From assembly GCF_000150955.2 (NCBI RefSeq), contig NC_011671.1, positions 496,001 through 560,000 of the forward strand: 64,000 nt of DNA, read 5' to 3'. A program made the position numbers and the translations under genes. The stretch is from Phaeodactylum tricornutum CCAP 1055/1 (lineage: Eukaryota; Bacillariophyta; Bacillariophyceae; Surirellales; Neidiaceae). Positions 4,530 through 61,306 of the stretch are shown here, piece by piece (within the stretch, counting starts at the first letter, position 1; every line of letters starts with the position of its first letter). Under the pieces are notes generated by a model. It did not search any database. It was not told the DNA's origin and saw only the letters and a list, made by a program, of their open reading frames with translations.

Positions 4530-5176
4530 TAAAACGGAATTGTGCAATGGATAAGAGTAGGAATATCGTTGACTGAAAATACCTCATTCCAACAATATAC
4601 CGTAGGACCCTCCCTCTCTAGCTGGAGTGTATGCACTCGTTCTTCTCTCACTTTCCGTTTTCGGGTAGTGGTAGCTTCGGATGAGATCGTTGGCGGTTTG
4701 TCTGTAGGATTGGGTGTGTGAGAAGATTGTCTGTCCATGACGCATGCGCGTAGGAAACGAACAAATCTTGCCCGCTGCATGGCCCGTGCCGTGCCGTACG
4801 ATACCACCAGGTCCTTTTCACCCCTGCCAACGAGTGACCCCGCGAAGGATATCCCTTTTGGAATTTCGAGCCGTAGCTACTCTAGCGATTGGTGGATGTT
4901 GTTGACACCGCGATCCAACGAACCCAAAAACTGTGGTCTCGATCCACACGCCAACACCGACGGACACACACCACCGCATTGACTGTGAATTCATACCTTC
5001 CGCGTACGTTTTCAATAGCATTCGCTCTCTTTAGTAGTCTCCACCGGAACTCCTTGCTAGTAGTAGCTGCGACTGCGACTACTAATACTACTCATACATT
5101 TACTTGCAATTACAGCTAGCTGCTATCCATTCCGGTATCCATTTCTTTTATCTATCCATTGATCCATCCGGCTAGC
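4530..5176. other. Intergenic, promoter region of the PsbP-like gene
   Basis: No gene seen. It holds the 3' end of the complex I gene and the upstream region of the PsbP gene, including one TGACTGTGA copy at 4980. Confidence 0.5.
4980..4988 (+). promoter_or_regulatory. TGACTGTGA motif, 197 bp before the PsbP-like start codon
   Basis: Copy of a 9-mer that recurs far above chance in this window, same orientation as the gene. A regulatory role is inferred only from frequency and placement. Confidence 0.35.
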
Positions 5177-6124
5177 ATGCGGATCCTCTCAACTTCCATC
5201 GCGACCGCCGTATGGGTGCTTCTGTCCAGCCAAGAATCCTTCGGGTTCTCCGTACGTCCCACAATTTCCCACCGGATGACAACCGCATCGATCGGCAGTG
5301 GCACTCACGGTAGTACGCGTCTGTGGGCGTCGTCTCCGGGAAACAACGACGACGATTCGCGTCGCGACTTTCTGACGCGATCGCTCGCGACGGCCGCCTT
5401 GGCGAGCGGCGGATGGTTTACCGGTACGGGCGTCGGCTACGTGGCTGATCCTCCCGCCGCCGCATGGGCCTTGACGGGCGTCAAAAAGGTCAACGCCAAA
5501 TTGGCCGGTTACGGCTTGCCCCTCGTGAGCAACGTTCCCGACGGACTCACGCCGCTGCTGGAAATCTACGGCAAGGGTGTGAATCGGTTCCCAGTCCTCG
5601 TGCAGTTCAATTATCCCGTTACCTGGGTCGTTACCACGCCCAGTAATAATGTGAATGGTGAAGACGGCACGGTCCAGGCTGGGGAATACAATAAGGGCGA
5701 CACAGCCACATTCTTTTTGTACTCGGAACCCGGCAACATCAAGGACGTTACAACGCAGTCCAAGGAGTTCTTCGAAAAGGCCCTCATGCGGTCCATTGGA
5801 CAAAAGGGCGACAACATGTACCAAAATTTCAAAGTTACCAAGCTGGAACCCACCGTCAAGGACGGAAAGCCCTACATGATCGCCGATTTCAAGTACCAAC
5901 TTCTGACCGGCGCCGGCTTTGAAGTCGATCGTAAGGGTGTGGCTAGTATTACCAGTCAAGGGGATGCTGTCGAAGTCTTGTGGGCCGCCTCCACCGCCAT
6001 TCGGTACAAGAAAACCGAAGAAACACTGCGGAACATTGTCGCGAGCTTTCGTTGTTACGCGGACGGGCTCAACTTTTCGGATGAACTCGTTGGTAGCGCC
6101 GCCTCTCGGGGATTGGACGGATAG
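5177..6124 (+). CDS. PsbP-domain protein, thylakoid lumen
   Basis: 315 residues from ATG 5177; the frame is open a little further upstream but without an ATG. The N-terminus has three targeting parts. First is a signal peptide (residues about 1-25) ending in ESFGFSV, which fits the AFAP-type cleavage motif of diatom plastid proteins. Next is a Ser/Thr-rich transit segment. Then comes a twin-arginine signal, SRRDFLTRSLATAALASGG, ending near AAWA. This predicts Tat-dependent export to the thylakoid lumen. The remaining 200 residues match the PsbP fold (FNYPVTWVV, KGDTATFFLYSEP, the C-terminal IVASFRC). PsbP-family proteins assist the oxygen-evolving side of photosystem II or its assembly; whether this is a true PsbP or a PPD/PPL-like paralogue cannot be decided here. 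Confidence 0.88.
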   Translation: MRILSTSIATAVWVLLSSQESFGFSVRPTISHRMTTASIGSGTHGSTRLWASSPGNNDDDSRRDFLTRSLATAALASGGWFTGTGVGYVADPPAAAWALTGVKKVNAKLAGYGLPLVSNVPDGLTPLLEIYGKGVNRFPVLVQFNYPVTWVVTTPSNNVNGEDGTVQAGEYNKGDTATFFLYSEPGNIKDVTTQSKEFFEKALMRSIGQKGDNMYQNFKVTKLEPTVKDGKPYMIADFKYQLLTGAGFEVDRKGVASITSQGDAVEVLWAASTAIRYKKTEETLRNIVASFRCYADGLNFSDELVGSAASRGLDG

Positions 6125-6387
6125 TAATCCTCATACGTTGCGCATTTAAAGAGAAGATCAACTATCAAGGTGCGCACCACAAACGTGTTTTTGTGATGTT
6201 GATCAAAGAAACGTTGCTGCGGAAAGACAAGAGAGCAAGTCGAACAGACCAAGGAGACTACAGCGAGTATGTAGAGTAACAACGGCCGTGATGCTAGTGG
6301 TAGTAATGCTAATTCCAAAATTAACGAGCGAATTAGGTCGTGCTTTGTCCACATTCTATCAAAATGCAGTGGAAGGTATACAACTTG

Positions 6388-8223
6388 TTACACTCGTGGT
6401 CTTTTGCAATCAACCGTTTCCAACTCCACGGCGGCGTCTTGATCCAAATTTGTCAAAACTTGCAAAACCTTGCGACGTAGAGCTGCCAAACACATCTTCT
6501 CTTCCACACAAATTGTCAACCCATACTGGAGTCGTCGTTCCGTCGTCCAGTCCAGCGTGCCAAAACATTTCCCATCTTTCTTGGAAGTTTCTTGCTTCAG
6601 CAACTCGCGTAACTGTCTCTGATCCTCTTTGAGTGTGCGACCCTTGACGAGTGTCTCGTATCCTGTGAGCTTTGTTTCGATTATACGCAACAAGCTGGTA
6701 CAGACTAGTTTTCCCAAAAAGTAATCTTCCAGAATGCTCCGATCCAACAAGCCCGACGCGGCTTCTTGGTAGGCACACTGAGGTAAAAAAGGCAGACAGC
6801 ACAACGTGACGAGCTCGTCCGTCAAAGGATTCGCGGCATCAATGAGTAAGTCATCCGAAATAAAATCCGCTTGCCGCGACCGATCCACCGCGACACTCCA
6901 GACTTCGTCTTCCATGTTCTGAGCCTCCATGGATGCTGCCAGTTTGGTGGGAAGACTCATTTCTTCGATTACTTGGAAGCAACCTTCCATGACTTCTTGT
7001 TTGCGTAGAATAGCGGGTGACAAAGTATGCATGGTCAAGTCGTTCGTAGATGGTTCGGGAGCAGTACTATTACAGCGGTTCATCATTGTTGCGCGAGGAA
7101 CGAATCCGAATGTTTGCAAAAATTGGCTAGCCGTCAAATCATCACCATAGCTGTGAAGTATTTCTTCCCCCAAAGCAATTTCCCGCTCGGCAATCATAAC
7201 AAAGGCGTCAGGAAAGCGTTGCAAACTTGTACAGCGGAGTTCGGTGCTGTGATTCAACAAATCAATGAGAGGCAACAGGAACGGACCGGGGTAGGCTGGT
7301 TTGGTACGAGAAGTGTCGCCCTGTACTCGCTGTTTGTGCAAAGACGATTGCTTGGACTCCTCTATTGCTGTTGTGGATAAATGAAAGCCTCGAGTGGAAA
7401 GACACTGACAAGCAACGGAAAAACGATTATACTCGTGTAGCAAGTGATGCAGTTGATTGTTCTCATCTGCATCAATGTCTGTGGCTTGGTGCGATTCCAC
7501 AGCAAGGATACCACAATAGACTAAATAAGGTCGTATCTGTTCCTTAAATCGTTCTTGCATACTTTTCTCGCTGATTTGCCAACCCACGGCCGCACCTCCC
7601 TGTGTACTCGTACCGTTCAGGTAATCGTGAATTTCTGCCGTCGACCATTCCCATACCGTTTCGTAAAAGGTCGGTAGTGAGGCGAAATACGGATAAAAGG
7701 CTTCGTCTTCCTGTGCCTCCCAAAAGGCGGCCAAACAACGCAACCATGGAGATGCCTGTCGCTGAAATTCACTTGTCGTTTTTCTTGCTTTTACAGCACA
7801 ATCGCTGTTAGCGGTGGATTGATTCTCCGTCTTTATATTCCACGTCGTTGGTAGCGTCTCTTCGTCGTCTCCATGAATAGCATGCGATACAGGCAATCGG
7901 ATCAAAATTTCACCCTTGTGGATTGGACTTATTGCGAACACTCCGCGATGATCAGCCTCAATCGTCCGCAGAGTCAAGGCCGGGTGGACGGTACCTCGAT
8001 CATCCCCGTCCGTCTCGTTATGTTGGCTTGCATCACGATGTATCCAGGTAACCAAATTCTTCCACACTGTAGCATCGTCCTTTGACGCGGTGGTCGCGTC
8101 GTCTGTCATTATCGCTCGCTTCAGGCTAAAAGAAGCAGGTGACTGTGAGAATGAAATAACGGAGGGCTGGAAATACCAAATCGGCGGGCCACAATGGAAT
8201 TGATATGGCGAGCGTCGATCCAT
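6388..8223 (-). CDS. SET-domain protein lysine methyltransferase of the RuBisCO-LSMT/SETD3 class
   Basis: Up to 611 residues from ATG 8223. An ATG at 8109 (residue 39) is an alternative start; the extra 38 residues are not family-like, and a TGACTGTGA copy at 8140 would then fall in the leader. The SET core is split in the way of this class: HPALTLRTIEADHRGVFA with KGEILIRLP near residues 80-115, then a long helical insert, then PLIDLLNHS and GEEILHSYGDDLTASQFLQTFGFV around 310-370. The C-terminal 200 residues fit the substrate-binding helical domain. The family uses S-adenosylmethionine to methylate lysine or histidine in non-histone proteins. No plastid presequence is obvious, so a cytosolic or nuclear substrate is likelier than RuBisCO. 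Confidence 0.88.
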   Translation of the reverse strand: MDRRSPYQFHCGPPIWYFQPSVISFSQSPASFSLKRAIMTDDATTASKDDATVWKNLVTWIHRDASQHNETDGDDRGTVHPALTLRTIEADHRGVFAISPIHKGEILIRLPVSHAIHGDDEETLPTTWNIKTENQSTANSDCAVKARKTTSEFQRQASPWLRCLAAFWEAQEDEAFYPYFASLPTFYETVWEWSTAEIHDYLNGTSTQGGAAVGWQISEKSMQERFKEQIRPYLVYCGILAVESHQATDIDADENNQLHHLLHEYNRFSVACQCLSTRGFHLSTTAIEESKQSSLHKQRVQGDTSRTKPAYPGPFLLPLIDLLNHSTELRCTSLQRFPDAFVMIAEREIALGEEILHSYGDDLTASQFLQTFGFVPRATMMNRCNSTAPEPSTNDLTMHTLSPAILRKQEVMEGCFQVIEEMSLPTKLAASMEAQNMEDEVWSVAVDRSRQADFISDDLLIDAANPLTDELVTLCCLPFLPQCAYQEAASGLLDRSILEDYFLGKLVCTSLLRIIETKLTGYETLVKGRTLKEDQRQLRELLKQETSKKDGKCFGTLDWTTERRLQYGLTICVEEKMCLAALRRKVLQVLTNLDQDAAVELETVDCKRPRV

Positions 8224-8455
8224 TTTGGAAAGGTAGTCCGGTTTTTTTTTTAAAGGCTTTTTTCGTAAATGAAGTCATAACATTATAAAGAATTTGCAAT
8301 TACATATCGGTGAATACTTTACAGCTTGTGTAATGTAAGTAGGAGAACAAAGCAATACCCATAATAATCTTTCCTTTCGCAGTCAACCCATAACATATTG
8401 TCGTCTAAATGTCAATTCAGTATTGTTCTACAATTTACACAATTTATGTAACTGT

Positions 8456-13518: not shown

Positions 13519-14128
13519 GACTTGGAAGAAAAAGCCGCAAGTTTATGTACGAACGTACTGGGGGGCTGCACCAGTTGCCTCGTGTCCTTTAACTTCTTTC
13601 CCGTACAGGTTTACAGTCAAGAGCGAGGCCATAGGTCCAAAAGCGAATCGGGTGCAACCAACAAAGGTGTGAAAATGATTCCGCCCGTCTCGTCCGTTTC
13701 CTGGGCTCGCCGTATCATCATACCATTATAGAAAGATCTCTGAATTGCCTGACGAGAAAGCGAGTGTCGCAGTTCGTATTCAAATTTGATTTATCCGGAC
13801 GACAGCGATACCTTTTTATTAATGTTAAATACGATTCATATCAATGTCAAATATAGGTAGTCGACATTAATTCCCGGCTCTTCTTTTGTCACGGATTCAG
13901 AATTGCCCACCCTGAAATGGCAATGACTGTGAGTTCAATCTCACTGTCAATCGCAGGCAGTGAGTGGGGTAGCAAGTCTCAACAGAGACTGATTGATTAA
14001 GTGTGAATAACTGCCGATGGCGGCAGCGAAGGAGCAACCGGACCGCTTGTGCAGGGACCGACCCGATGTGAGTCCAGGAGTAGCAAGGAAACTAAACCGC
14101 TGATTCGCAAGTTTCGTGAACGTGTACC
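13519..14128. promoter_or_regulatory. Divergent upstream region shared by Raptor and the ankyrin gene
   Basis: 610 bp with no supported gene. It is AT-rich around 13790-13870. It contains a quasi-palindrome built on the TGACTGTGA motif at 13924-13949. Confidence 0.45.
13924..13949. promoter_or_regulatory. Quasi-palindrome containing TGACTGTGA
   Basis: Arms TGACTGTGAG and CTCACTGTCA are separated by six bases; they are reverse complements except at one position. It lies 205 bp before the ankyrin ATG. It looks like a site for a dimeric DNA-binding protein, but no function is proven. Confidence 0.4.
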
Positions 14129-15801: not shown

Positions 15802-17559
15802 TCACCGGTTTCCGTAGTTGGACGCGATACCTTTTTGGCCTACAATCGCTCCTTGAACTTTGGTGTCTAATTCGACTTGGAGACCCTGGTACTCGCGCGC
15901 TTTCAGATACTCCGCCGCTGCACTGTGGTATGTAGTGAGTTGACCTTTTCCCGGCAACGAGTTCAACTCCACATTCTCCTCTGTCTGCCCTTTCACGGTC
16001 GGAGCCGATTCGTAGCGACCAGTAACCAGAGAGAAATAGGGAGCATCCGATTCATCGTCTAACTCCTTGGTAGTTGAATTGAAAGCTTCCGTAGTATTGT
16101 TCGTTGCTTCAGCTTGTAGCAGGTATTCGTGGACATCCAAAGCGTAGTCTACAGAACCCCAATCCGTCACTCCCAACGCCATGCTTAGCTCCAATGGTGT
16201 TAGAACGGGTACCGGGAACTCGCGATCCTCTTCCAACAAGGAATGCTCAGGACAAGCTACTAGGACAAAACAGTCAATTTCGGCGAAGTTGGCCAATTTG
16301 GCAGGATTGATTTTCCCAACGACCAAGGTGTAACTAACCCGCTCGTGATCCTGGATGAGGCGCCGTAGATTGTAGACAATCTCACGCATGCGTGTATCAC
16401 TCAGATTAGCGACCAGAATGCCAAAAACAGCTGAGTGTTTGGCCTTTTGCACCAGATAAAACCGGCGATTTAGGATTCTTTGGAACTTTGGCGATAGCTC
16501 TGTTACTAGCGACTCGTCCACAGGATTCCACACCCAATAGGCAGAGGGACCACTTCCCGACAGGAACCTTAGTACAATGTTTAAGTACTGGCGATCCAGG
16601 TCATCACCAATAAACAAAAATACAAAGTCTGAGTATCGCAAATCTGTAGGAAGTTCCAGTCCACCAACGACGAAATTGCCAGGCCCTGTCGAACCCCTTT
16701 TACAAGTCGATATAGCTAGATTTGACACTTCATCAGAGATGGGACACTCTTCAGCTGTTGACGCGGCTCCTGCTTGGCTCTTGCAGCAATCAGTTTGCGA
16801 AGACCTAGCCGCCTTTGTAAGCTCAGAGGACTCCGTTGACGACTTGCCGCAAGACTCGGTTAGTTTTCCACAACCTGAGAATTGACTGTGAAGTGGCTTA
16901 TAGTTAGTAGCCCTTGGCGGGATTCTTCCAAGTGTCACGTGAAAATTCTCTTCCTCCAGCTTGGATTGCAATTCCTCCATGGCGTGATGATAACCGACAT
17001 CGTAAAGCACCAGCATTCGCTCTACAGACTCCACCTGTGCTGCCTGCTTCGCGACTACGTGTTCCACGCAGCGCTGCACATTGATTGGTGATCGACCGAA
17101 ACTGTATAAGACAGGTACCTGATTGCTCGGGCTGAGACAGGCGTGTCCAAAATGTACCAAACAAGTCGCTTCCAAATGAGCTGCTGCTACTTGGTCTGGG
17201 CAGCAAGCTGCGTAGGTGGTGTCACCAAGACAAAAGACGAGAGCGTTGGGTAAGGCTTCCTCCAAAGCCCAGCAAACGGCTGGTGCGTCATGCAAAAGCT
17301 CGTCCGGGAATTGCAAAGCCACACGATGACTCCAAACGTCTTCCCTTTCTGATTCTTTCTGTCGCGACGGCGGCGGAAATCTCTGAATTTGTTTTACAAG
17401 ATAATCGATTTCGAAATAGTCATGTACCGAAACGGACTGGGCTCGAGCGGATGTTGTGACAACATTTGACGTCGCCGACGCTGCAGCTTCTTGCATAATG
17501 CGAGAGCCGTCGTCAAACATTAGCTGCGGTGGCGGTGGTCGTGAATCCGATTCCGTCAT
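15802..17559 (-). CDS. DPH2: Diphthamide biosynthesis protein 2
   Basis: Single exon, 585 residues from ATG 17559. The family signature is plain: FEIDYLVKQIQRF near residue 50, VALQFPDELL near 80, then LGDTTYAACCPDQVAAAHLEA near 125-145 and VHFGHACLSP. The C-terminal third contains LVVGKINPAKLANFAEIDCFVLVACPEHSLLE. With DPH1 it forms the [4Fe-4S] enzyme that transfers a 3-amino-3-carboxypropyl group from S-adenosylmethionine to a histidine of elongation factor 2, the first step of diphthamide synthesis in the cytosol. A Ser/Thr/Cys-rich insert of about 70 residues sits in the middle (residues about 230-300). One TGACTGTGA copy at 16883 lies inside the coding sequence. Confidence 0.92.
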   Translation of the reverse strand: MTESDSRPPPPQLMFDDGSRIMQEAAASATSNVVTTSARAQSVSVHDYFEIDYLVKQIQRFPPPSRQKESEREDVWSHRVALQFPDELLHDAPAVCWALEEALPNALVFCLGDTTYAACCPDQVAAAHLEATCLVHFGHACLSPSNQVPVLYSFGRSPINVQRCVEHVVAKQAAQVESVERMLVLYDVGYHHAMEELQSKLEEENFHVTLGRIPPRATNYKPLHSQFSGCGKLTESCGKSSTESSELTKAARSSQTDCCKSQAGAASTAEECPISDEVSNLAISTCKRGSTGPGNFVVGGLELPTDLRYSDFVFLFIGDDLDRQYLNIVLRFLSGSGPSAYWVWNPVDESLVTELSPKFQRILNRRFYLVQKAKHSAVFGILVANLSDTRMREIVYNLRRLIQDHERVSYTLVVGKINPAKLANFAEIDCFVLVACPEHSLLEEDREFPVPVLTPLELSMALGVTDWGSVDYALDVHEYLLQAEATNNTTEAFNSTTKELDDESDAPYFSLVTGRYESAPTVKGQTEENVELNSLPGKGQLTTYHSAAAEYLKAREYQGLQVELDTKVQGAIVGQKGIASNYGNR

Positions 17560-17862
17560 ACTTTCGATTGGAGATGTAAATTGCTATGAATAGACGGACA
17601 AGTAGCCTTGAACAATAATGTGCATCCATTTTGGAAGCAAGTTACCACCAATCTCGATAAGAACGAGACTGAATACATTGAGCCCCAATGGTCGTAGATT
17701 CTGGATTCCCTGACTGTGAATGACATTTTGAGGAAAGCAAGGTTGCAAAATGCCTCGGGAAGTGACAGGGAAAAATTCCCCTATGTAAACGCCGGTCATT
17801 TTGAAGAATTACAGAGTCAATGACTAACAGTAAAGAGTAGAAGAGTTTCTGTTGGGGTTGCC
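17560..17862. promoter_or_regulatory. Divergent upstream region of DPH2 and the secreted Cys-rich gene
   Basis: About 300 bp between two start codons, so both promoters are here. A TGACTGTGA copy lies at 17711-17719. The short open frames inside are not supported. Confidence 0.45.
17711..17719 (+). promoter_or_regulatory. TGACTGTGA motif, 152 bp before the secreted-protein start
   Basis: Exact copy, same orientation as the downstream gene; role inferred from recurrence only. Confidence 0.35.
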
Positions 17863-20375: not shown

Positions 20376-20960
20376 GTTCGTCGATGCAATGTGCTCGCTT
20401 TTCGTATTTGCAGTCAAATCACCTCACAATCCCGGTTACATACAGCCTAGTCGGCTGGGTGTTCTGCTATGTATACTCGCGCAAGGGAACTGGAGCGCTT
20501 ACAGTTAGTCTAGGTTGAACTGTTTCTCTGAAGCGGCGAAAAATGGAGGGTGCCCATCAAATATTTGCATGACAGTACACTGTATGGAAGGATTGCTGTA
20601 ATCGGATCTGTCCTGAACAAGTCTCATTTCAGTGTCACATATAGGTGCACGATGATTTAGCAGATGCACACTCTACTAGAGCTAGGGAAACCCAGATAGG
20701 GCACGTCGTCCGGACTCATCATCAAACCCATCCTCGCTGGCAACTCACTGGTTGATCACGTCGACCTTAAGGTTGAACATAGCTTCAAGATCCAGTTCAC
20801 AAAGACAACATAGGAGCTCATTAACAGTCGGATCTGTCATTTTAGTCGAAGAGATAGTTACAGTTAGTTAGTTGCTAGCTAGACTACAAATAGACTGCAA
20901 TAGGGACTAGCAAATGAGCAATTACGCAGAACTACCGCAACGGAGAGTTCTGTGCCCTTA
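20376..20960. other. Intergenic between two minus-strand genes
   Basis: 585 bp with no supported gene. It is the upstream region of the carboxypeptidase and the 3' side of the trigger-factor gene. Two ACAGTTAG copies are visible, near 20500 and 20860. Confidence 0.45.
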
Positions 20961-21671: not shown

Positions 21672-22007
21672 TCTTTTTTTTCGCGAAGAGAAGCTTTATT
21701 TGTTTGAGAAAATAAGGTCTGCGGCAAACTATTCGACCTGAGGTATCATGGTTGTGGTCTTTCCATTCGCAGTCAGCGGAATCCACGGGCAGCCGTTGAT
21801 CCAACAATCCGTCACTTTCAGTGACTCATGAGAATCTGGATTGCATGCTGTGGTACGTACACTTTTACTACAAACGGTCCGCGAGAATCGAGAGTCCAAG
21901 AGGTTACAATTATATTAGCAGTAAGTGTTATTGTGAAAACATAGTTGCATTTAAATTTCATTCTTGTTTTTCGAATATGTTTCTTATATTATTACTGTTA
22001 ATTTCAA
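21672..22007. other. Intergenic, trigger-factor promoter side
   Basis: No gene seen. AT-rich from about 21890 to 22007, where it meets the inverted-repeat-bounded unit. Confidence 0.4.
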
Positions 22008-24178
22008 GAGAAAATTCGCTATTTGGGATGAGCAGGGGTGAAAATTACGCTATTTGGGAAAAACACATCGATTCTAAGTATTTTTATCCTCGAGGGAAAC
22101 CCATTTCTAAGTAAACTATTTATTTATGAACAATCGCATATACTATGTGTGGCCATTGGCATTCAATGTAGCAGGTGCCTCGATGAAATTTTCGATTCTC
22201 CACCCAGCAGCCAACGCTTTCCTTGTTTTCCACAAGCAGGCTTCCGCGGATGTTCTGTAGGTCCAACTCAGGGTATAGACAACAGCAAGAGGCTACAGGC
22301 GCGAGCCGCTCACGGGTGACGGAACCGTCAAAAATACACGTTTGGATGAATCGCGAGTAGATTCTGGTTTGCCCGTTTCTCGTCCATCTTTACGCCGCAC
22401 AATCTTCTCGCACCAAACAACTCCATCTCGCCAGGCGGAATGTTTTGACAGCTGTCGACAGCAGTCGACAGCACTGGATGCCCAATCAATTGTGTAAGCA
22501 ATGCTATCTATGCGACATGCAGTTTACTGTTTTTCGAAGGCGTCATCATTGTTGACTTTGTGGACAGTCTTCTGTGTAATGTAAATTGAAATTTACAGTT
22601 ATTATGCTGTCAACGGTATTGGCCCCAGCTGCCTCTGCACAAACACCGTACTCCAAAAGTTCACTTGCAGGGTAGGGTTTTATTGTTTGCAACAAGAATT
22701 TGGGTACTATTCCTTCCACAAAAACTTAGAGCCTCCTAAGCGCCCTTTTCGAGATCCAGCCAACATTGCAGTTTTGCAAAAGGGTAAGTGTACACGTCCT
22801 CGGAATTGTGCAATGTGACCCACTTGAAGTTTGTCCTCACTTGTCAGTTGCTTGAAAATAGTCGTATACTGGAAAAGTCGTGATATGGCAGCTCACTATG
22901 ATTTGTTGAGAGATTATAGTTCGGAAGCATCAGGATATTTCGGATCCATTCGCATTCCGGCTACTCTGATTGCAGGGTCATCTCTCGGAGCGCTCTTCAC
23001 CTTTTCTGGCGTTCAACTCGAAAACAAGTCTGCCGCTGAATTGTTGATTTTGCGGTTGTATCATGCTTTCGTCCTTACGTCTTTTGCATTGGCGCTCTCA
23101 ACCATCATCATATCAACTAGCGCCACAATCACAATGCTACACGGAAGGTTCGATGCAAGAGCAGAAACTGCATACGAGTTGCTACGTCGAGAGTTTGATT
23201 TCGAGTTTTCGATTACAAGATGGACGTATTTGGTCGCTCTAATCTCCTTCATTGCGGGTGTAAACAACCGAGTGATTCTGGAATTTAATTTGCTGGGAAA
23301 AGATCGAAGGTTTCATTTACTTGCTTTAGTCAGTACTATGGTCAGCATAGCCACAAATATGTTGAGTTATATAAACAGGACACTCTACTGTTGGCCAAAC
23401 CTTTGGCATCTAACAATTCATGTGATGAAACTCTTTTTTTACGAAGCTTTGAGCGAAGGAAATGCACTTCAAACTATATCCCTCCTTTCTGGTGTCGTTG
23501 CGCTACTTGCGATGGCAAAGGTTACTCTTTTCACAGTCTATGATTGTCAGGCAGATAGGAAAACTGAGAAGAAAATATCATAACCATCAATGTATCCTCC
23601 TCAAGCAGTCATGAAAATGGGGTTGCACCAAGACTAAAAAGTGAACAAGAATAGCCCTCTTCCCGGGTTTTTGTTCCCTTGTGTGAGTGGTCCCAAGATG
23701 GAAATTCTTTCTCGTTTTTTGACAGTGAATTGTACTGATCCCAAACAGTTTTTGCTACAAATTCACAGAAAACGCATATTTCACAGTCAAATTGAACACC
23801 ACGATCGAATATATCGCGCTTTCCGCATCTTCCATTCTCTATGCTCTTTCCTGTGTCTTCTATTGCTCCCGTTTAAAGCTTACTCCAATGGTTGGGATGA
23901 GCAGGTGTGAAATTTACATTATTTGGGAAGAACCGAATTGATTTTAAGTATCTTTATATCAGACTATAATTGTGCTGGCGCCTGGCGATCTAAGCAGAAT
24001 GAGTACCTTGCGGAGAGAATTGAGTTTTTCTAGTTACAAATATCAAGATGACAAACCACAGCATATCGACTATAGGTCAATTTAAATCTATTACCCGCGA
24101 CAATTACAAAACTTAGAACAAGCGCCTTTCCGAAATAGTAATTTTCAATCCTGCTCATCCCGAATAGTGGATTTTCTC
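22008..24178. repeat. Unit bounded by about 70 bp imperfect terminal inverted repeats
   Basis: The block 22008-22078 reappears as reverse complement at 24112-24178. Both contain GGGATGAGCAGG, and the match runs from GAGAAAAT at the outer edge to TTCTAAG at the inner edge with small gaps. A third, direct copy of the left block lies at 23890-23957. The unit could be a non-autonomous DNA element, or nested short elements: 23890-24178 alone would be a 290 bp MITE-like piece. No transposase is seen and no clear target-site duplication is visible at the edges. The membrane-protein gene at 22885-23583 lies inside. Confidence 0.6.
22885..23583 (+). CDS. Small multi-pass membrane protein, unknown family
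   Basis: 232 residues from ATG 22885; the frame is open upstream but has no earlier ATG. Four hydrophobic segments are visible: residues about 25-42 (ATLIAGSSLGALFTFSG), 58-82 (HAFVLTSFALALSTIIIS), 115-135 (YLVALISFIAGV) and 148-165. A weaker segment lies near the end (ISLLSGVVALLAMAKVTLF). No motif allows a functional name. The N-terminus (HYDLLRDYSSEASGYFGSIRIPATL) looks like an amphipathic lead-in to the first segment. It lies within the inverted-repeat-bounded unit, so it may be cargo of a mobile element or a host gene between two short elements. Transcript evidence would decide if it is real. Confidence 0.55.
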   Translation: MAAHYDLLRDYSSEASGYFGSIRIPATLIAGSSLGALFTFSGVQLENKSAAELLILRLYHAFVLTSFALALSTIIISTSATITMLHGRFDARAETAYELLRREFDFEFSITRWTYLVALISFIAGVNNRVILEFNLLGKDRRFHLLALVSTMVSIATNMLSYINRTLYCWPNLWHLTIHVMKLFFYEALSEGNALQTISLLSGVVALLAMAKVTLFTVYDCQADRKTEKKIS

Positions 24179-24293
24179 AATTTTCCGATTCGAGAGTGGC
24201 GGTGGCGATGCGGAATGTAAAGTCCCAAAACATGCTGATCTTATGGATAGTGAGCATGAGCTTTAAACGACGCTGATTCCCAGGAATTCAAAA
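23584..24293. other. Intergenic with repeat copies
   Basis: 710 bp without a supported gene. It carries the direct repeat copy (23890-23957), the right inverted repeat (24112-24178) and one reverse TGACTGTGA copy at 23781-23789. Confidence 0.5.
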
Positions 24294-32695: not shown

Positions 32696-35600
32696 TTACT
32701 TACTTGTGAGGTGTCGCACACCATTCCAGTCGTCTGGCGGGAGCGCACTTTGACTCTCCATAAAGTGAATCAAGCACTTGCAAGCGCCGTCGCCGAAATC
32801 GTTCTGTAGTCGGTTTACTTCTTCATTCTCGCTTTTTCGATTGAAAATTTCGTCACCGAAAGCGTTGTCGTCGTAGTCGATATAACCTTCTTCCAAAACT
32901 GTTTCGATCATCCGGTTGTCGGCCGCTTGTAGAGTCTCAATGGCATCTTTCCATTTTCCTTCCAGGTACTGTTCAACACCGCGTTTGTGAAGTTTCATAA
33001 ACTTTTCGTCCACGTGTTGTCGCATCGATAGTAAGTCTTGATCGACGTCCCATATGTTGGCAGTGTAGGCGTCGGCTTCGGAGTCAGCTTGTTCAGGGGA
33101 CCGTTCGAAGAGAAAGAAGTCCACGCCTTCGAATCGGGCATCATAAGTGTAGATCGGCTGCTTAAGATTGCTACCCTTAACATAAACAGTGTCAAGATGC
33201 CTCAGCTTGGCCCTCGCTGGTTTCGAGAGGAGCTCTTCGACGGCTTTACTCAAAAGAATTGTGACACCATATTGTTTGGCTGCACTCATCATGCGCGATG
33301 CCATGTTCACATGGGGTGAAAGATAGGTAGCATCGATCTTGTATTCACTTCCAACAGCACCCTCGACGGCCCAGCCCGCATCCATACCATAGATAACACT
33401 GACGCTAAACGCCCCGACGCCTGCTCCTAGACGGAAATCTTTTTTCCACGCCTGAAGCTTCACATCCCGGTTGATGCCAGCAAACGATTTCAAAAAAGCA
33501 AGCAACGCGCGGTCAGCAAACCCCTGAATACCGGGTAAGCTTGCCAGCTGCAATGTGTCCATTTCCTTCCCTCCAATATCAAAGCGATTGATACTACCGC
33601 GGGAACCCTGACGGGAGCTTTTCCTCTTCCGAAGCCTCACATTCTTCTTCATCTGAGAGTTGAAGACAACCTCTGTCGCTTTCTTTTTCTTGTCATGAAC
33701 TTCAGTAAAGTCTCCTATACGAAACACCATCAAAAAAGCAGCGCCCAAATTTTTGTTGCATTGCCCACTGTCTCCGAGTGCCCAACGATAAACCTCGTCG
33801 TGAACAACTCTAGCAACATCATTGATCAGAATCATCACATCTCTATCTAGAACCCGAAGTTGTTTGCTGAAATCGTTAATGGCAACAAATCCGAATAGTG
33901 CGTAAACTCTCTTGCCTGGAACTGTTGGATTGAAAACAACAGTTTTCCCATCCTTTGTTCGAGCCAAATTTGTTGAAATGATACCCGCTCCGGCCACGCC
34001 CCAACATTTGCGGAGCAGGTCGGCAATCTTTGCAATGGCGTTGATTAACTGCACGGTTTCGTAGCTTCCAAGTTGCTCCTTATTTCCCTCGTCATCTGAG
34101 CCCCCTATGCTCTTCTCATCTGAAATTTCGCTAGTGTAGGAAGAATGACGAGACTTTCGGCGACCCTTGTCCTGGATTGTTTGCGAAAGAGGGTTTTCAG
34201 CATCTGAAGCAACCATTGAAAGTGTCAGACGAGCGTCATCAGCGACTTATCTCCATTTTGGGAGCAAAATTACTTACATCGAACAACAATACGTAACATT
34301 CTCTGTAAAGGGTTGAGAACCAGGCGCCCCGCATCACCACGCATGACTGTGAGACCGAGGAGGCAAACCATGAATGTAGAAGCTAGCAAAATTAACAGAG
34401 CGGTATTTCTGGTCGGAATTGAAAAAGAAGCGTCAGGATCATGGATTGGCTGAACTTGTCCGAAAAGCACTTCATACATACACAAATGCAATCGTATGCC
34501 CCTCATTGAAAATCGCTTTAACTTCGAATGCAGTGAGACTCTGATTGGGTGCTGACTGTGAACCGAAACCGAAGGAAGCGCTTGAATACTGTATCTCTTC
34601 AAATTCTGTCACTCCGCCTATCCTGAGGCCCAACTGTTCCGCAAAATATGAAGAGGTTGCAGTTGATGGATCGGAGCCGTTCGGCCAAGTAGTTTGCCAC
34701 CGCTGACACGTCAAGCGGGTCTCGTAGCCTGGGCCGCATTGCGTAATGATTCCGTCTTCCAGTTGCCAATCACAACGAACTGGCAGAACCTGCGCCCACA
34801 GTACAAACATATTCTCGGCCGTCGACTCGTAGAATCTATATGCCGTATACACCTCAGCCATAGATCTTAGCCACGCAGACACTGCGTTGAAAAGAAAGTC
34901 GCAGTCATCCGTCGTATTAGCAATCAAGTTGTTGGCCTGAAGCAAAGCAACTTGCTCAGGAGCAACAACATTTTGATCATACAACGAGTTGATCGCCGGA
35001 AAGACAGTAACGACACAGAGACTAGCAAAAGTTTGTGCCAGTAAGAATAAGAGGGTAGCGACATCATTGACCGAGAAAAAGGGAACTGAAAAGACTTACA
35101 GCATAAACAAAGCCCTATGGGAGTTCACCAACATGAGTGCTGTGCCAATTGTAGCAGCCCCGGTGAGTTGCTGATCCTCTTCATTGGACACTGGTTTGCT
35201 CTCGGATGGCGTCTCAAGATTGGCTTGATGTAAATCTCTATCAGGATCGTCCTAAAATATGAAGTCATGCCGACAATTCAGTAAAGGGGGGTTGAATTGA
35301 GCAAAATATTGATATTACAGTACAAACCTTCAATTTGCGCTTGAGTTGCTCCTTCCCTTTTTCTTTTTCAGCCAAGAATAATTCTCTTACGAAATCTGAA
35401 AAATAGCACGAAGAAAGTAAGAGAACAAATTCGACATTGGCATAGTCACGCAAAATCAGAACTTACGTTCTTCAAAGCGAGAACCAACAAAAGTATGAGA
35501 CAACCACATTTGTTTCCAGTGGCGCACGAGGCCAAAAACTCGTAGGAAAGTCAATCCGATAACGACGCGACCCGCAGCAGCCTTCCAGGTCGACTGGCTC

Positions 35601-42081: not shown

Positions 42082-43113
42082 TTGCAAACTAGGCGAAAAC
42101 GTTTTAATGGGGTACAAATTACTTATTCGAAGTATATCTGTTTGTACAGAGCCCGCCCTTCAGCTAGACTATGATGGGTGCTGACAGTCTTCCAATCATC
42201 CAGTCCGAAGCCCGGACTCCAGTGTCTGTAAGTAGCAGTATTGCGCGACCGCCAAAAGGTTGAACCAGCGAGTGACCCTGCAAAGATATTCACTGTCAGC
42301 AGGCATCTCTGTCCAAAAAAAGTGATACGAAGAAAAGTGGTGACGTGATGACGGTGCCACGCCGATAGCAGGTTCCTATTGGTTGGGCAGGCTATCGCAA
42401 TTTTTATTCGTGGTCGGTCATTCTCTGAAGATTATGTTAAAAAGATAGGTGGCACGCGGGGGCTTACCAGAAAATAGGTTCAACTAGAAAATTCGTGGTT
42501 GATCACTCCCAATTAATAATATCGAATTATTCGGAACGTATACTTTCCAATTTTCAACGGTATTTAGAGGCTCACAAAGTGGTACCTGTGCGACCGGTAC
42601 GCGCGTACGAATTTCCCTCTCTTTTTCCCTTATTGAACGGCATCGCTTCGGACGGGCGACAACCTCCAACCGAGATCCGAGAATCAGCGCCATAAGATAC
42701 GCTGGCAGTGCGTACGATTGCCATTCTCTCCGAATATCCGTACTATTTTGCTCGAACGTCTCGGTATCCTGCTACAGTACAAGGTAAGGATGATTGGAGG
42801 GAAAGGAAAACGGGAGATTCTACGGGATCTTCATTTTGTGGCCACTGGCAGTTCGTTCGGCACGCGTCGCCGCTCCAATATCCGGGTTTTTTGGACGTGA
42901 CCTTGGGCTGCTCACAATTTTTGGCTAATATTTTGCCGCACAAAATCCGGCAGACGCGATCGAAACGCTAGCTGTGCTTCGTAGCCTGCGGTACAAAATC
43001 GAAGGGTCACCGCATCTCACACGCATACTAGGTTTCTCCGTCTTCGACCGCTCTCATCCCTGTTTCATCTTTTCCTTCTGCCGTCTGCTTTTCAGCCTTT
43101 CACGGTTTAGGCC
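42082..43113. other. Intergenic between condensin and the zinc-module gene
   Basis: 1,032 bp with only short open frames of no known kind. It should hold the condensin 3' end and the upstream region of the zinc-module gene, with a pyrimidine-rich stretch near 43030-43110 just before the ATG. Confidence 0.45.
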
Positions 43114-52712: not shown

Positions 52713-52905
52713 TTGCTTGACAATAATAATAGTCTGGGAACGCTGCGAAGGGATGGGGGACGGAGCAACGCCTCCAGAAGGGAACGATCCTCGTTTTGAT
52801 TCCAAATAAAAGAGTACTAGAAGGGTCACTTACAGTTAAACTTACATTACCCACACACTTCAAAATATTACATTTACAAAATCGGATTCCGATCATCGCA
52901 TATTA

Positions 52906-53724: not shown

Positions 53725-54235
53725 TGGAACCAAACTGTGATGGTTGGTGTGGTTGCGAATGTTGCGACACGGTAGAGTTGCGGGAGAATTTAACAGCTAT
53801 TGCGACTAGCCTCGGACGAGGGAGCGCGGAGTGTACGTTCAACGCTCACCGCGTTGCGTTCGTGCGTTGGACCGGCACTAAGGATTCCGGTGCTCGCTCT
53901 TGCAGTCCGTCGCTTCAAACCAAGGAACGAACCAAAGTGAGTATCTCTTTCCCTGGCAACCCAAAAACACTACACAGCTCGTCTTTTCCGTTGTGGCGGA
54001 CTAGTTTGGATTGGCTTGGCTGTGGACACACAATCCCTGGAGAAAGTCGTTGGTGAGTTGTGTTTGTTGTGCGGAAACCGCTATCGTGGAACCTTGTGGG
54101 GCGTTTTTAAGGGGAGATGTCAGCGGACACAATGCTGTTGCTCAACTGGGAGGAGCGCAGTAGTGTTTACAGTTAGGAGTAATGGCCTATACTTATTGGG
54201 CGCTCGCCGATTGGCGGGCCTATCGATTAAATGTC

Positions 54236-54244
54236 TGACTGTGA
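54236..54244 (+). promoter_or_regulatory. TGACTGTGA motif, 230 bp before TFIIH p62
   Basis: Exact copy in the orientation of the gene, followed closely by GTCACTCAC. Role inferred only from recurrence. Confidence 0.35.
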
Positions 54245-56391: not shown

Positions 56392-57011
56392 GGCTTCGTC
56401 TCTCAGAGCTGTCCTACGCTTCAAAATACCAACAAACAGTAGACTTATTCTATAATGTGAAATGACGAGCGATTTCACTGTTAGCGACCTTGAGACACTC
56501 CCACATTGCAGGAAAGTCGACGAAGCGTTCTCACTGTCCAAGACTAATATGATGCCCCCCCTCTCTAGAGAGGTAGCTATCATCGCTTCCTAACTAAAAG
56601 ACCTCGTCCTGATGAGCTCTCTCCCCCTAGCTAGATGGTCATTTGTCCACTTATCGCTTCCCCATATCCGGGTCTGCAGGGGATTGTCAAGTGATTGCTT
56701 GTCTGTCACGAAGTCGATCGAACAATTTCCAAAAAGCTATTCGGCGGTTCGCTTTCTGGTCTTGTCAATCGTGAGGGCGCGCGCCGACAACCCGTGTTCC
56801 ACGACCAATCCTCATCTCTGGCGTAGAGGCGGTGATACTGATGATCTTGAGATGGATTTAAAAAATAGTCATCGATAGAAACTGTTCCCCGAAATGTTGG
56901 ATCGACTTCCTGGGAACGTCGAGCGACATCGGCCTCGTCTTCTGGTTCATGTGAAATTCATTTGTTTTTTGGTCCCTTTCATAAATTTCTAAGCAACACC
57001 TGGTCGAAACC
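56392..57011. other. Intergenic between TFIIH p62 and the TMEM53-like gene
   Basis: 620 bp with no supported gene or repeat. Confidence 0.45.
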
Positions 57012-57830
57012 ATGAACGCAAGCAACCATAGTTTTTGTGTGGACGACTACCCCGACAAGAAGCCCAAGGCCATTGTCTTGCTGCTTGGTTGGTGGGGAGC
57101 CAAAAGCCGCCATTTGGCGAAGTATGGCCAGCTGTATCAAGAACGGGATTGCTTGACGGTGCAAGCAATCTGTGACACCTACGCCATTTTGGTCCGAAAT
57201 ACTCGGTCGATCGATCAATGCGCGATTGAAGCAGCCGCTCACGTGGCACAGGTGCTCCGTGATATCGATGACGACACCATTCCGGTGATCTTTCATGCGT
57301 TCAGCAACGGTGGAGCCTACGTTGTCGAGCGGATGGAAGCTATGATTCGGCATGCTCGGACCAATTCGCTTCCCAGTGACCAGGATTCTGACATGGTTCT
57401 TGTCGGCAAGCATTTGCAGGGCCAAATCTATGATTCGGCTCCCGTATGGCCGACAACCGAGTCTGCTGTGGAAGCGGCTGCTGGTGTTTTCTCGAACTCG
57501 ATAGCTCGCAAAGTTGTTGCATTACTATTTTATCTTCATCAGTTCATTTCATCCCTCTACCAGATTTTATTCCGTGTGATGGATTGGCGGCAAGTATTTT
57601 GGAGCAACTTGGCTGAGCACGCCCTTTGCACGAAGCAGGCGTTTATATATTCGGAGGCTGATACCATCACCAACGTAAAGAAACTCGAAGAGCTCATTGC
57701 AATGCGACAAAAGAAAAGCGACGAGGTTCTTGTAAAAAAGTTCGAAGATTCCTTGCACGTCCAGCACCTTCGAACACACCCTCAAGAGTACGTAGATTTA
57801 CTTGACAAGTTCCTCGCGCTATTTAGTTAA
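57012..57830 (+). CDS. TMEM53/DUF829 alpha/beta-hydrolase-like protein
   Basis: 272 residues from ATG 57012. DUF829 pattern: KAIVLLLGWWGAKSRHLAKYGQLY near residue 20, nucleophile-elbow-like FHAFSNGGA near 98, then GQIYDSAPVWPTTESA near 137. A hydrophobic stretch near residues 168-195 (VVALLFYLHQFISSLYQILF) may be a membrane or hydrophobic-core helix. The end, HLRTHPQEYVDLLDKFL, carries the usual His. The vertebrate relative TMEM53 sits at the nuclear envelope; enzymatic activity of the family is unproven. Confidence 0.88.
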   Translation: MNASNHSFCVDDYPDKKPKAIVLLLGWWGAKSRHLAKYGQLYQERDCLTVQAICDTYAILVRNTRSIDQCAIEAAAHVAQVLRDIDDDTIPVIFHAFSNGGAYVVERMEAMIRHARTNSLPSDQDSDMVLVGKHLQGQIYDSAPVWPTTESAVEAAAGVFSNSIARKVVALLFYLHQFISSLYQILFRVMDWRQVFWSNLAEHALCTKQAFIYSEADTITNVKKLEELIAMRQKKSDEVLVKKFEDSLHVQHLRTHPQEYVDLLDKFLALFS

Positions 57831-57941
57831 TTCCTTCTAGTGCTCGCTTTTGATCTTTGTTCAGTCCAAATTCGCATGATGCATGAACAGTTAGTTGATC
57901 AAGAAGTTCGCATTTGTATCAAATGGCCACAATACCATTCT

Positions 57942-59273
57942 CTATTGGCCCTGCAGCTGCAGAGTTAGCCTTTCCATATGCTGGGGAGTGACATAGTGGC
58001 ACATGTTTGAGTTTTTCGTGCACATGTCGTCGCCTTGATTCCTGCATTCTCGCTTGAGTTCCTCGGTTTCTGGAGTTGGTCGTCCTGCATAAATCATCGA
58101 GCCATTAAACCCTTGCAGTCGATCTTCCAGTAGGCTAGAAAATTTCGGAGTATTTGTATGCACGGAGATATGATAAAAATTTGTAAAGTAACCCCAAACC
58201 CAATCGCTATGCAAGCAGTAGCCTAGGGAATTCCAAGAATCGACTTGCTGGTATGGCTGATCATTCACATACGCGTGCATTAACTGAGCCACGCTCATGC
58301 CTTCTCGGAAAAGGGGCTGCTCACCAATAGGGCTTTCCGAAAGACGCCAGCAAGCCAAACGCACAAACTCATCCTCAAAATTGTTTGGAGCAGTGTTGCA
58401 GTAAAGCGGCTTCATCAGGTTTTCAATTGCTGGTCGGCTAAAGATCATCCCCCAGCCTCCGTAGGGAATGGTGAAATTGTGTTCGTGTACACGAGAGCGA
58501 ATCATACACCCCGCAATAGCATAAGGGAGTTCAGCTGGATACATTGATCGCAAACTCGACACCAGCTGATCTATATTCACCCAAGTATCGTCATCCACTA
58601 CTATTAAGTAGTCGGGGGTATCCTGCGACTTGTACGAGCCCAAAGTTTTCATCAGACCATCGAATGGCCGCTTTTGTGCGCAAAGCCAACCAATCGGGTT
58701 TGACTTCTTTTTCAACCATCGTAGGGTTGCGTAATGCATTGTCATTTGTCTGAAGTGAAAGAATTTCTCTCCTAGTACATTTCCACGACCCCTGCAGAAC
58801 TTGACCACCTTTTGCAGGTGTGTTGATGAAAGTCTTTTGTGGCAATCCATTTCGGTGTCGTCGTCCTCAGTTAGCCCAAAGAAATTCCTGACGGAGCTGT
58901 AGTTTCCAAAGATGTTTTTCTGTGTCTCTTGGTACAACGGTCGGGCGTGAGAGCCAACACTGATGATATCTATGGTCGTATTTGAACGTCGTCGGTCTCG
59001 CCGCTGATGAGCCAACACTTCTACTTTTTCGGCGTTCGATGAGCCCACTCGAATTTCATCGCTATATTTTGCAAGCCCGAGTCTTGGAATGGATACAATG
59101 ATCTTCTGCAGCTCGTCATCTGAAAACTTTTGCTGATTTATGAGGGATGATTGATGAATCACATAAAAGCACAACCACGAGACGAAACAACATACGAGTA
59201 AAATCCTCGTCTTGGTCAAACTGCGCGAGCGAACGCTCGTGCTTCCTTTGCTGCCTCTTACTGTATTAGACAT
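57942..59273 (-). CDS. Type II membrane glycosyltransferase, fringe/beta-1,3-galactosyltransferase-like
   Basis: 443 residues from ATG 59273. A short basic cytosolic tail (SLTKTR) precedes a signal anchor at residues about 24-45 (ILLVCCFVSWLCFYVIHQ), as in Golgi enzymes. The catalytic part has PDYLIVVDDDTWVN near residue 225, the DxD metal/nucleotide-sugar motif of GT31-like enzymes, and GGWGMIFSRPAIENL near 280, the second conserved loop of fringe-type enzymes. The fit to GT31 is by pattern; donor and acceptor sugars are unknown. Probably Golgi glycan synthesis. Confidence 0.8.
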   Translation of the reverse strand: MSNTVRGSKGSTSVRSRSLTKTRILLVCCFVSWLCFYVIHQSSLINQQKFSDDELQKIIVSIPRLGLAKYSDEIRVGSSNAEKVEVLAHQRRDRRRSNTTIDIISVGSHARPLYQETQKNIFGNYSSVRNFFGLTEDDDTEMDCHKRLSSTHLQKVVKFCRGRGNVLGEKFFHFRQMTMHYATLRWLKKKSNPIGWLCAQKRPFDGLMKTLGSYKSQDTPDYLIVVDDDTWVNIDQLVSSLRSMYPAELPYAIAGCMIRSRVHEHNFTIPYGGWGMIFSRPAIENLMKPLYCNTAPNNFEDEFVRLACWRLSESPIGEQPLFREGMSVAQLMHAYVNDQPYQQVDSWNSLGYCLHSDWVWGYFTNFYHISVHTNTPKFSSLLEDRLQGFNGSMIYAGRPTPETEELKRECRNQGDDMCTKNSNMCHYVTPQHMERLTLQLQGQ

Positions 59274-61306
59274 TGTGCCATGCCGTAGCCGCGATAGTAC
59301 GATTTACAATTTTACGGGTCACGCCTTTTCTTCACAGCCAAAGCCTCATCGTGCATCAAGCCAAATAAGGATACGATGCCCGACTGTATAAACAAATGAC
59401 AAAGTTACAACGTGCAATTACTTCGTCAAAGGTCACTCTCGAATGCCCGATTCCGGGGCTACGCTGTAATTTCGAATAAGATAGCCAAAAAGTCATTCTT
59501 GAATTTTTAATTTGGATACTTGCGATATGGCAGGGAAACTAGTACATTGATAATAAGTATCTCAGATCATAAAACAACAAATATCAACTGGTTTATTATT
59601 GACATTGTTTCGATCATAATAGAGGAAATTCACTGATCCGCCTCATAGTCAATGAGGCCGCAAAGTCACAAATCCGTCCCAAAACAAGATCTATAAACAT
59701 TAAGTATCAAAGTTTCCTTAGGAGTGACAATTATCGCTCACAGTAGATTTTATGAAGTGTCCGATTTCAACGAGCTGTTGAAGGTTAATCCAATAACTGT
59801 AAACCGCGTTACTCTCAGAGTTTTGGACCCAACACAGAACAATCCTGTGGCTATCAGCAAGAACAGATAACTATTCCTGTTCTCATTGAATGGACAGGAT
59901 GTCAACAGCATTGAATTGGCAGTCTTTGATACTGACATCAGTGAAAAAGAACAACTCCAGAGTAGTTTTTGGAGCATCTTGGCGTTGCGGGACAAGACCA
60001 CTCATGAAGTGAGAGAGTCTCTTCTGCTTTTGGGTTGTTTACCAGGTACTGTTTATTGCCATAAGAATGCAGTGGACTTACTCTGGCCCATGGAGACTCG
60101 TTTGGAAAGCCATCGTGGAAGAGTTGAGTTCCAAAACCTAACCTCTGGGCGAAATCAACTATTTGGCGGCGTGTCAACTACAAGACGGCGCAGATCCCTC
60201 TATACTGCTGTGGTGGTAGTGGCGCATGCTGAACCTGCCCTGTCATTGGTGACACTGCACCCGCACAATCCTTTGAGAATGGCAGAAGCTTCTTAACTTG
60301 CATTTGCTGTTCGAAACTCTTGGAGTTCTGGCGACAATTTGTTCTCTGTATGCTTGGGGTAAATTATTCACAGTCAACTGCTATGAAACAGATTGATTGA
60401 TAGCTCCGCTATATCATATAGAGAGCATACACAGAGCATTGCAATACTTTTGAATTGCAAATTTTACTTTAAAGCCGTTTCGCGCTCAATCTAAAGTACT
60501 TACTGTTTAAATTGTTCAGATTTGGCCGAACTATCGATTTTTTCATGTCGTTCAGGCCGAAATAACGATTTGCCTCATTGGTTTGATGCCCATAGTCTCA
60601 ATAGGAACACACAGAAAAAGAACAAGCGAAATAGATTTACTGACTGTGAAATTTGATCCAATTACTCACATTAGGAAACCACTCTGGCCCTACCTTTGTT
60701 ACTTACTGATACCAAAATCTAGGTATATGCCGGATTACTTTAGTGAATTTGCTCATTATATTATTGTAGACCCTGTTGTGTAGCAAAGCTCTGACTGTGA
60801 ACAAACACTGAACACTTAGTGGATATCTCTCTCATAAATAGTAGCTTCGGGAACGGGTTTTGCGTACAGTGAACTACAGAGACGCCACGTTTGCCAGCGA
60901 TCGAAAGTGCCACTGTATCATGAGGAAACACTCCAGGTTTCACCTTTTTCACTTATAGAAAGAAAGGCATCTACGTTGTCGAAAAAAGTAGTATTTTCAA
61001 TATAATTTTTTCTCTTGGTGCCTGCCTTCATTTGCTTACCGGAAAGCCTGTTTGAACGACGGGCAAATTATTCAACGTCTTGGCTGTACAAATTTTTCGC
61101 GGCAATGGCGTCGGTTTGACTACGATGTTATAGCTCGATTTCTTCCAATTTTGCTGTTCGCCTTTTTGGTTACTTCATGGGACTATTGGAACCTTCAATC
61201 AATCCTTATCTATTCCATCGAAAACTGCGATCCATTCGCAATAATTGCTTCTACGGCGGCGCCTACCTCCCGCCTTTCCTGAGAACTTACACTTTTCTTG
61301 CATCAT
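59274..61306. other. Gene-poor 2 kb interval
   Basis: Only short open frames. The segment 59750-60296 reads as a frame of about 180 codons broken once (LKVNPITVNRVTLRVLDPTQN, then NGQDVNSIELAVFDTD), possibly a decayed gene of unknown kind. Three TGACTGTGA copies lie at 60368 (reverse), 60641 and 60792. The remainder is AT-rich without recognisable features. Confidence 0.4.

Follow-up and report, generated by a model that had tools for sequence, protein, structure and literature searches.

Duplication of a 3-bp, palindromic target is a property of IS5/PIF-Harbinger transposons, and the TBE elements of stichotrich ciliates, which have an IS630-like transposase, duplicate a 3-bp ANT with a free middle base and undergo programmed excision. 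For Tc1/mariner elements, passages of the sources cited here describe 3′ overhangs of 2 to 3 nucleotides (nt) (PMC3878927) and footprints of 2 to 4 bp, compared with 0 to 3 bp for ZB (PMC7913693). By the same kind of account, cleavage of ISY100 takes place at the 3′ ends of the element and two nt in from its 5′ ends (PMC2170065), the footprint of Sleeping Beauty and Frog Prince consists of C(A/T)G and the TA duplication after it (PMC3878927), and Luffy, in a haptophyte, duplicates TA (PMC10138859). Sailor (DD82E, range DD78-111E) is a superfamily of IS630-Tc1-mariner, is reported from one choanoflagellate, duplicates predominantly TATA and has terminal inverted repeats (TIRs) that usually begin with GT or CC; spacing DD83E is described as frequent, stramenopiles included (PMC8533490, in part). 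Here we analyzed a stretch of 64,000 nt from the diatom Phaeodactylum tricornutum CCAP 1055/1 (NC_011671.1, our contig C3, positions 496001-560000; "the window"), in which the 9-nt word TGACTGTGA recurs. Judged from sequence, the word is very probably one spelling of a TNA-CWG-TNA excision footprint (N, any base; W, A or T) left by a cut-and-paste, IS630/Tc1/mariner-like transposon that inserts at Y-TNA-R (Y, pyrimidine; R, purine).

The window contains 12 exact copies of TGACTGTGA, compared with 0.65 expected and a maximum of 4 in 100 dinucleotide shuffles. An earlier, sequence-only reading of this DNA had listed these copies as far above chance, and its coordinates, strands and judgment were all correct. 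It had also noted that A or G follows every copy, which is true of all 12; among the 34 copies in 264 kb of the contig (C3:396001-660000, window included; the sample used below unless stated otherwise), the next base was A in 20, G in 8, C in 6 and T in none, a preference and no rule. The genome-wide count which that reading had proposed was run on the assembly of 27,450,724 bp in 88 contigs with the reversed word as control, and yielded 3449 copies (1749 + 1700) against 183 (97 + 86). The 9-mers with the highest z in the 264-kb sample were TAACTGTAA (25 versus 0.8 expected), TGACTGTGA (34 versus 2.1) and TAACAGTAA (19 versus 0.9), and TGACAGTGA was likewise high (18 versus 2.3). All four read T-X-A-C-W-G-T-X-A with one base at both X. 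When the first X was tabulated against the second (4 × 4), strong enrichment was confined to the diagonal for either W; equal X occurred in 96 of 128 T-N-A-CWG-T-N-A words, whereas 32.4 were expected and the maximum of 10,000 permutations was 51.

The same pattern held genome-wide, with reversed controls in brackets: TGACAGTGA occurred 2226 times (314) and TAACWGTAA 3240 times (811), the latter comprising 1916 TAACTGTAA (433) and 1324 TAACAGTAA, for a family total of 8915 words. Words with mixed X were not above their controls, as TAACWGTGA was found 574 times on both strands (555) and the self-complementary TGACWGTCA and TAACWGTTA at 349 (706) and 165 (514) places, respectively. Subtraction of the mixed words from the total, with the self-complementary ones doubled because they have half as many spellings, leaves an excess over background of roughly 7,800-7,900, to which decayed copies are additional. 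In the window, 27 family members (Table 1), here called scars, compare with about 1.5 by chance (from 6.1 per 264 kb).

The architecture of the site has, on these data, the form of an excision footprint: a 3-bp TNA target duplication flanking CWG. It is mirror-symmetric throughout except at X, which is repeated rather than complemented. A pyrimidine preceded 73 and a purine followed 85 of 96 scars (together 158 of 192, or 82%), compared with 50.5% for TNA and, with scars excluded, 54% before TNACWG; one step farther out, A/T was favoured on both sides. A palindromic target W-Y-T-N-A-R-W combined with a 3-base stagger would give a TNA duplication with a free middle base. Among spacers of 0 to 6 nt between TNA copies, CWG alone was strongly and numerously enriched (96 versus 6.1 expected); CAA/TTG was found 22 times versus 8.0, and high z among the longer spacers (5 and 6 nt) was limited to a few with just 2-4 copies.

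Empty sites were sought for 134 family words in all retrieved DNA, as aligned paralogs spanning the site. Four scars were informative, and for three of them a paralog lacked the scar, two by exactly CWG+TNA and one by this plus one lost base. The scar TTACAGTTA at C3:628917 faces a C4 paralog that has TTA only and is exactly six bases shorter; reciprocally, the scar TTACTGTTA at L040:1359 on C4 faces TTA alone in the C3 paralog, which is likewise six bases shorter. TTACTGTTA also occurs in a transposon derivative on C16 and is lacking in four other copies (C9, C21 and two C44 duplicates); the five-base gap aligned there is read as six inserted bases and one lost in a T run. Paralogs on C4 (L040) and C2 (L035), about 88% identical, share the scar at window position 60368, which is therefore probably older than the separation of these copies.

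An element with the corresponding ends and target is present in the genome. The DDE_3 profile (PF13358, the Tc1/mariner/IS630 catalytic domain) gave four matches above cut-off in the genome and that of DDE_Tnp_4 (PF13359, Harbinger) none, and a PIF/Harbinger source was dropped on this ground. The DDE_3 match at C6:467515 lies, with a 600-amino-acid (aa) frame, in a complete element of 2209 bp (C6:466993-469201) that has perfect 23-bp inverted repeats, starts with CAG and ends with CTG, and is flanked by TAA on both sides with C before and G after; its terminal sequence, CAGTGGGCG, begins with CA. Five derivatives of 634-638 bp share these ends and, as the C44 pair is one insertion, inverted and duplicated, represent four independent derivatives. 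The inverted repeats are perfect over 23 bp in L029, L047, L048 and L049, and measure 19 bp in L045 and 18 in L046. The derivatives on C9, C21 and C44 are bordered by equal duplications (TAA, TCA and TTA) with Y and R flanks; in all, four of five independent complete copies carry a target duplication (TAA, TAA, TCA and TTA), and the fifth has TGA/TCA. Two further partial copies lie on C4 and C2: among the 12 end-pattern loci fetched, L035 and L040 were aligned to the element and both matched, and the other ten were assessed by eye and by best-partner score. Between themselves, the C21 and C44 derivatives share 99.5-99.7% identity, and over 371 bp they match the autonomous copy at 98.4-98.7%, a closeness indicative of recent movement.

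A six-frame search with the transposase returned 37 matches, many of them fragments of one locus; about 15 transposase loci, mostly broken or partial and ranging from 30% to 100% identity, stand beside the short derivatives. A DDE_3-type transposase with an RNase-H-like core was found in 28 of 28 aligned members. In the transposase of the element, 83 residues separate the second D from the E (DD83E). The profile and predicted fold match those of Sleeping Beauty and Mos1, and a search of the single transposase sequence against the PDB returned no match. Homologs occur in the choanoflagellate Salpingoeca rosetta, and among other diatoms Nitzschia inconspicua and Amphora coffeaeformis encode the transposase. 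Ends were sought and not found at the transposase loci C12:741 kb and C6:716 kb, a candidate "left end" at C12 being dropped as a match to a different repeat, and the 264 kb of C3 held no intact element, the one weak hit being equalled by the single hit in reversed sequence.

From the TNA duplications at extant copies, the CAG/CTG ends, the CWG between duplicated TNA at thousands of sites and the 6-bp steps against empty sites, all directly visible, we infer how the scars may arise. Insertion at Y-TNA-R duplicates the 3-bp TNA. Excision would cut exactly at the 3′ ends of the element and, at the 5′ ends, 3 nt within it, leaving each broken flank with a 3-nt 3′ overhang that reads CAG; the two overhangs would pair at C and G, with the middle A facing A as a mismatch. 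Repair that retains A or T would then place CAG or CTG between the TNA copies, a net insertion of 6 bp. The spelling TGACTGTGA would result from the target TGA (TCA on the other strand) and a middle T in that orientation. This mechanism is ordinary; a TNA target is unusual, and so is the scale, with scars in the thousands and only a handful of elements. Some 7,800 scars against about 15 transposase loci imply that the element moved very often without growth or was formerly far more numerous. We consider it unlikely that near-complete excision, perhaps tied to the life cycle or assisted by the host, keeps the copy number of the element very low, so that it never multiplies and possibly is still running; if true, such a lifestyle would have its natural counterpart in the programmed excision of ciliates.

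Several observations weigh against the footprint interpretation. It is drawn from the sequence of one assembly. Equal X was somewhat raised with ten other centres too (112 of 303 words). If the family is spelled with a purine at X, the middle base W is T in 61% of scars (3449 of 5675) at X=G and in 59% (1916 of 3240) at X=A, and this bias of about 60:40 departs from the prediction of simple repair. The mixed-X words partly share the flank preference (Y 23 of 32, R 20 of 32), of which decayed scars among them could be the source. One of the four independent short copies, the C16 derivative, has unequal flanks, TGA and TCA. A presumed scar at C3:654780 had to be dropped as the end of another element, and window positions 21995-22598, the weak element hit mentioned above, proved to be bounded by two separate family words. 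The exact end TNACAGTGGGC occurs 41 times versus 39 for its reversed control, with only paired or aligned occurrences representing elements; being no commoner than its control, it indicates that surviving copies are few. Most scars, finally, are not assignable to this exact family as opposed to extinct relatives that shared its ends and its target.

Compared with the known systems, the site resembles that described in part for Sleeping Beauty and Frog Prince, namely three element-end bases, the middle one either A or T, set between two target duplications, and both the spacer counts (96 versus 6.1) and the empty sites suggest that a C(A/T)G footprint of this type is left here. It differs in the TNA duplication (3 bp, in Y-TNA-R) instead of TA, in DD83E and in the thousands of natural scars. 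With a DDE_3 transposase and TIRs, the diatom element falls within IS630-Tc1-mariner in the broad sense. It falls outside Tc1/mariner sensu stricto, as the duplication is TNA rather than TA and its spacing of 83 residues departs from the DD34-41E/D given in passages of PMC8533490. Sailor, as far as these passages describe it, is similar in that DD83E lies inside DD78-111E and in the transposase homologs of a choanoflagellate, and different in its TATA duplication and in TIRs starting with GT or CC, here CAG; the words diatom, Bacillariophyta and Phaeodactylum are absent from the main text of the Sailor paper (PMC8533490). IS5/PIF-Harbinger elements differ from the matching diatom element, which has a DDE_3 transposase in a genome lacking PF13359, and TBE elements differ in the ANT target, the host and the programmed excision. 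To Tc1/mariner (TA) and Sailor (TATA), the element adds a lineage that targets TNA and has CAG ends. No report of a TNA-CWG-TNA footprint was among the matches listed from the open-licence literature (titles and abstract starts), nor, by title, was any diatom paper among those listed for the literal words; the Phaeodactylum paper PMC2758714, seen in excerpt, contains ACAGTCA in a primer.

The position of the scars relative to genes bears on the proposal of the sequence-only reading that TGACTGTGA may be a transcription-factor or core-promoter site, in which case a factor or paralogous factors would read the direct repeat TXA-CWG-TXA. Open reading frames (ORFs) were called by a simple hexamer score that ignores introns and covered 63% of bases, and their starts served as proxies for transcription starts in all distance tests. 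Only 7 of 96 scars were coding, compared with 1940 of 3310 YTNAR targets (p = 5e-27); the 7 are a lower bound, as the caller misses some exons (34553 being one such case), and the depletion is strong despite this. The 89 of 96 sites outside called ORFs would suit a promoter element, as would the high frequency of TGACTGTGA on its own and a slightly raised rate close to ORF starts (68 of 862 targets within 1 kb versus 21 of 508 farther away; p = 0.006). The lower rate at the greater distances could stem from insertion into open chromatin close to genes, or from exons that the caller missed there. However, the density was alike in divergent, tandem and convergent intergenic regions (0.92, 0.96 and 0.79 per kb; 72, 68 and 49 per 1000 targets; convergent 11 of 225 targets versus 78 of 1114 elsewhere, p = 0.30), and no distance peak appeared upstream of the nearest ORF start (57, 92, 95, 69 and 84 scars per 1000 targets in the bins up to 1 kb, 46 and 35 in those beyond). 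Orientation within 500 bp of the nearest start was mixed as well (17 same, 28 opposite; p = 0.14). The plot of distance and strand that the sequence-only reading had put forward showed neither a fixed distance nor a set orientation relative to these proxies, and a promoter element fails by that reading's own criterion. The spacing that it had pointed out, about 152-230 bp before an ATG, holds for 4980, 13924, 17711 and 54236 but reflects intergenic placement. As for the three copies it had placed in exons, 16883 and 34553 do lie in ORFs of 585 and 170 aa, but 34344 is in no ORF of at least 150 aa; the copy at 8140 falls within a 611-aa ORF, 25 codons past its called start. A promoter site would moreover need X to be equal yet unconstrained and the remainder palindromic, and paralogs without the 6-bp insertion speak against it; we consider it highly improbable. 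Readings as a transcription-factor, C2H2 three-finger or Myb (TAACTG) site were dropped given the X=X coupling, the palindromic flanks and the empty sites, and a CpA-to-TpA mutation like that of repeat-induced point mutation, linking the TGA and TAA forms, was dropped because mixed words stand at control level. Of the options in the sequence-only reading, a piece of a dispersed repeat came closest; the word is very probably the mark of a mobile element's departure, two copies of the target duplication around three element-end bases, and not part of a repeat itself.

Period-6 slippage giving TXACWG repeats is next to inconceivable as the origin of the family. The word does equal 1.5 units of a hexamer repeat, one doubled copy was present in 264 kb and period-6 words are mildly raised overall, but around the CWG centre the enrichment is 12- to 26-fold for TNA triplets and 2.3-fold for the next triplet, other centres reach at most 1.6-fold with triplets summed, the outer flanks show target-site symmetry and empty sites differ by one 6-bp step. 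Transposase might instead have made micro-insertions without a full element, for example by abortive Y-TNA-R cutting in which three terminal bases are joined, which could account for 8915 words beside about 15 transposase-related loci and a few short derivatives. We know of no precedent for such an activity. Simple excision gives identical bases and has a documented example in Sleeping Beauty, in the passages available (PMC3878927), and we give micro-insertion very little credence. A more serious possibility, compatible with the excision footprint and only somewhat short of even, is that the scars stem mainly from other, extinct families that likewise targeted TNA and had CAG/CTG ends, and that the C6 element (CAGTGGGC family) is a late relative of these. 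In its favour, one-mismatch neighbours exceed expectation by 98.8 versus an exact excess of 89.9, or about 0.11 changes per base, and the X pair alone gives a scar decay of about 0.08 per site. This range of 0.08-0.11 is an upper bound to which other words may contribute, and it stands against the 99.5-99.7% identity of the C21/C44 derivatives; the wide range of transposase identities agrees with such families as well, but ends that would represent them were not found at C12:741 kb and C6:716 kb. The decay suggests an old, long-running accumulation of scars, and the near-identical derivatives together with a scar in only one of them suggest that accumulation continued recently.

Since three of the four scar spellings are the top three 9-mers by z, motif finders applied to the promoters of this diatom should report them as regulatory, and the excision footprint would explain away such would-be motifs. 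The scars would further constitute a dense fossil record of transposon departures, about one per 3 kb, from which total transposition, target choice, repair outcome and coding depletion could be measured in one genome with no need for surviving copies. If still active, the element could serve as an insertional tool in this model diatom.

Table 1. Probable scars of the TNA-CWG-TNA family in the window (positions in the window; ORF strands in brackets)
Scar	Position	Strand	Remarks
TGA-CAG-TGA	1964..1972	+	in called 969-aa ORF (-) extending past the window; frame FHCH
TGA-CTG-TGA	4980..4988	+	flanks t/a
TGA-CTG-TGA	8140..8148	+	near called N-terminus of 611-aa ORF (-)
TGA-CTG-TGA	13924..13932	+	
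TCA-CTG-TCA	13941..13949	-	
TGA-CTG-TGA	16883..16891	+	within 585-aa ORF (-); frame LHSQ
TGA-CTG-TGA	17711..17719	+	
TAA-CAG-TAA	17825..17833	+	
TTA-CAG-TTA	20499..20507	-	
TTA-CAG-TTA	20858..20866	-	
TTA-CTG-TTA	21992..22000	-	
TTA-CAG-TTA	22593..22601	-	
TGA-CAG-TGA	23720..23728	+	
TCA-CAG-TCA	23781..23789	-	TGACTGTGA on -
TGA-CTG-TGA	34344..34352	+	
TGA-CTG-TGA	34553..34561	+	within 170-aa ORF (-, 34472-34984)
TCA-CTG-TCA	42290..42298	-	
TTA-CAG-TTA	52830..52838	-	
TTA-CAG-TTA	54167..54175	-	
TGA-CTG-TGA	54236..54244	+	
TAA-CTG-TAA	59794..59802	+	
TCA-CAG-TCA	60368..60376	-	within repeat
TGA-CTG-TGA	60641..60649	+	
TGA-CTG-TGA	60792..60800	+	
TAA-CTG-TAA	62769..62777	+	
TAA-CAG-TAA	63026..63034	+	
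TTA-CTG-TTA	63126..63134	-	

Further repeats were seen in and around the window. Positions 60292-60584 belong to a repeat family for which the genome gives 48 matches, often arranged as inverted pairs about 1 kb apart, and their sequence is apparently the middle of two larger transposon derivatives on C4 and C2. Repeat copies with GGGATGAGCAGG at 22008-22067, 23892-23932 and 24127-24184 also occur to the left of the C12 transposase locus and possibly form another non-autonomous family. Within C3:654486-654896, L028 (C3:654597-654785) is a TTAA-flanked element of 189 bp whose inverted ends match at 20 of 23 positions, nested in another inverted-repeat element. At C16:386000-386850 (L046), the right flank of the derivative is itself a scar, TCACTGTCA, and another scar lies inside the derivative. 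L030 (C3:1430760-1434146) is a transposase copy with in-frame stops in which unrelated sequence replaces the 5′ part. Other words over-represented in the 264-kb sample were CTAGCTAG (22 versus 2.1 expected), TACCGGTA (26 versus 5.2), GTACGTAC (18 versus 4.8), CCTACCTA (15 versus 2.2) and ATGCTATTG (13 versus 2.2).

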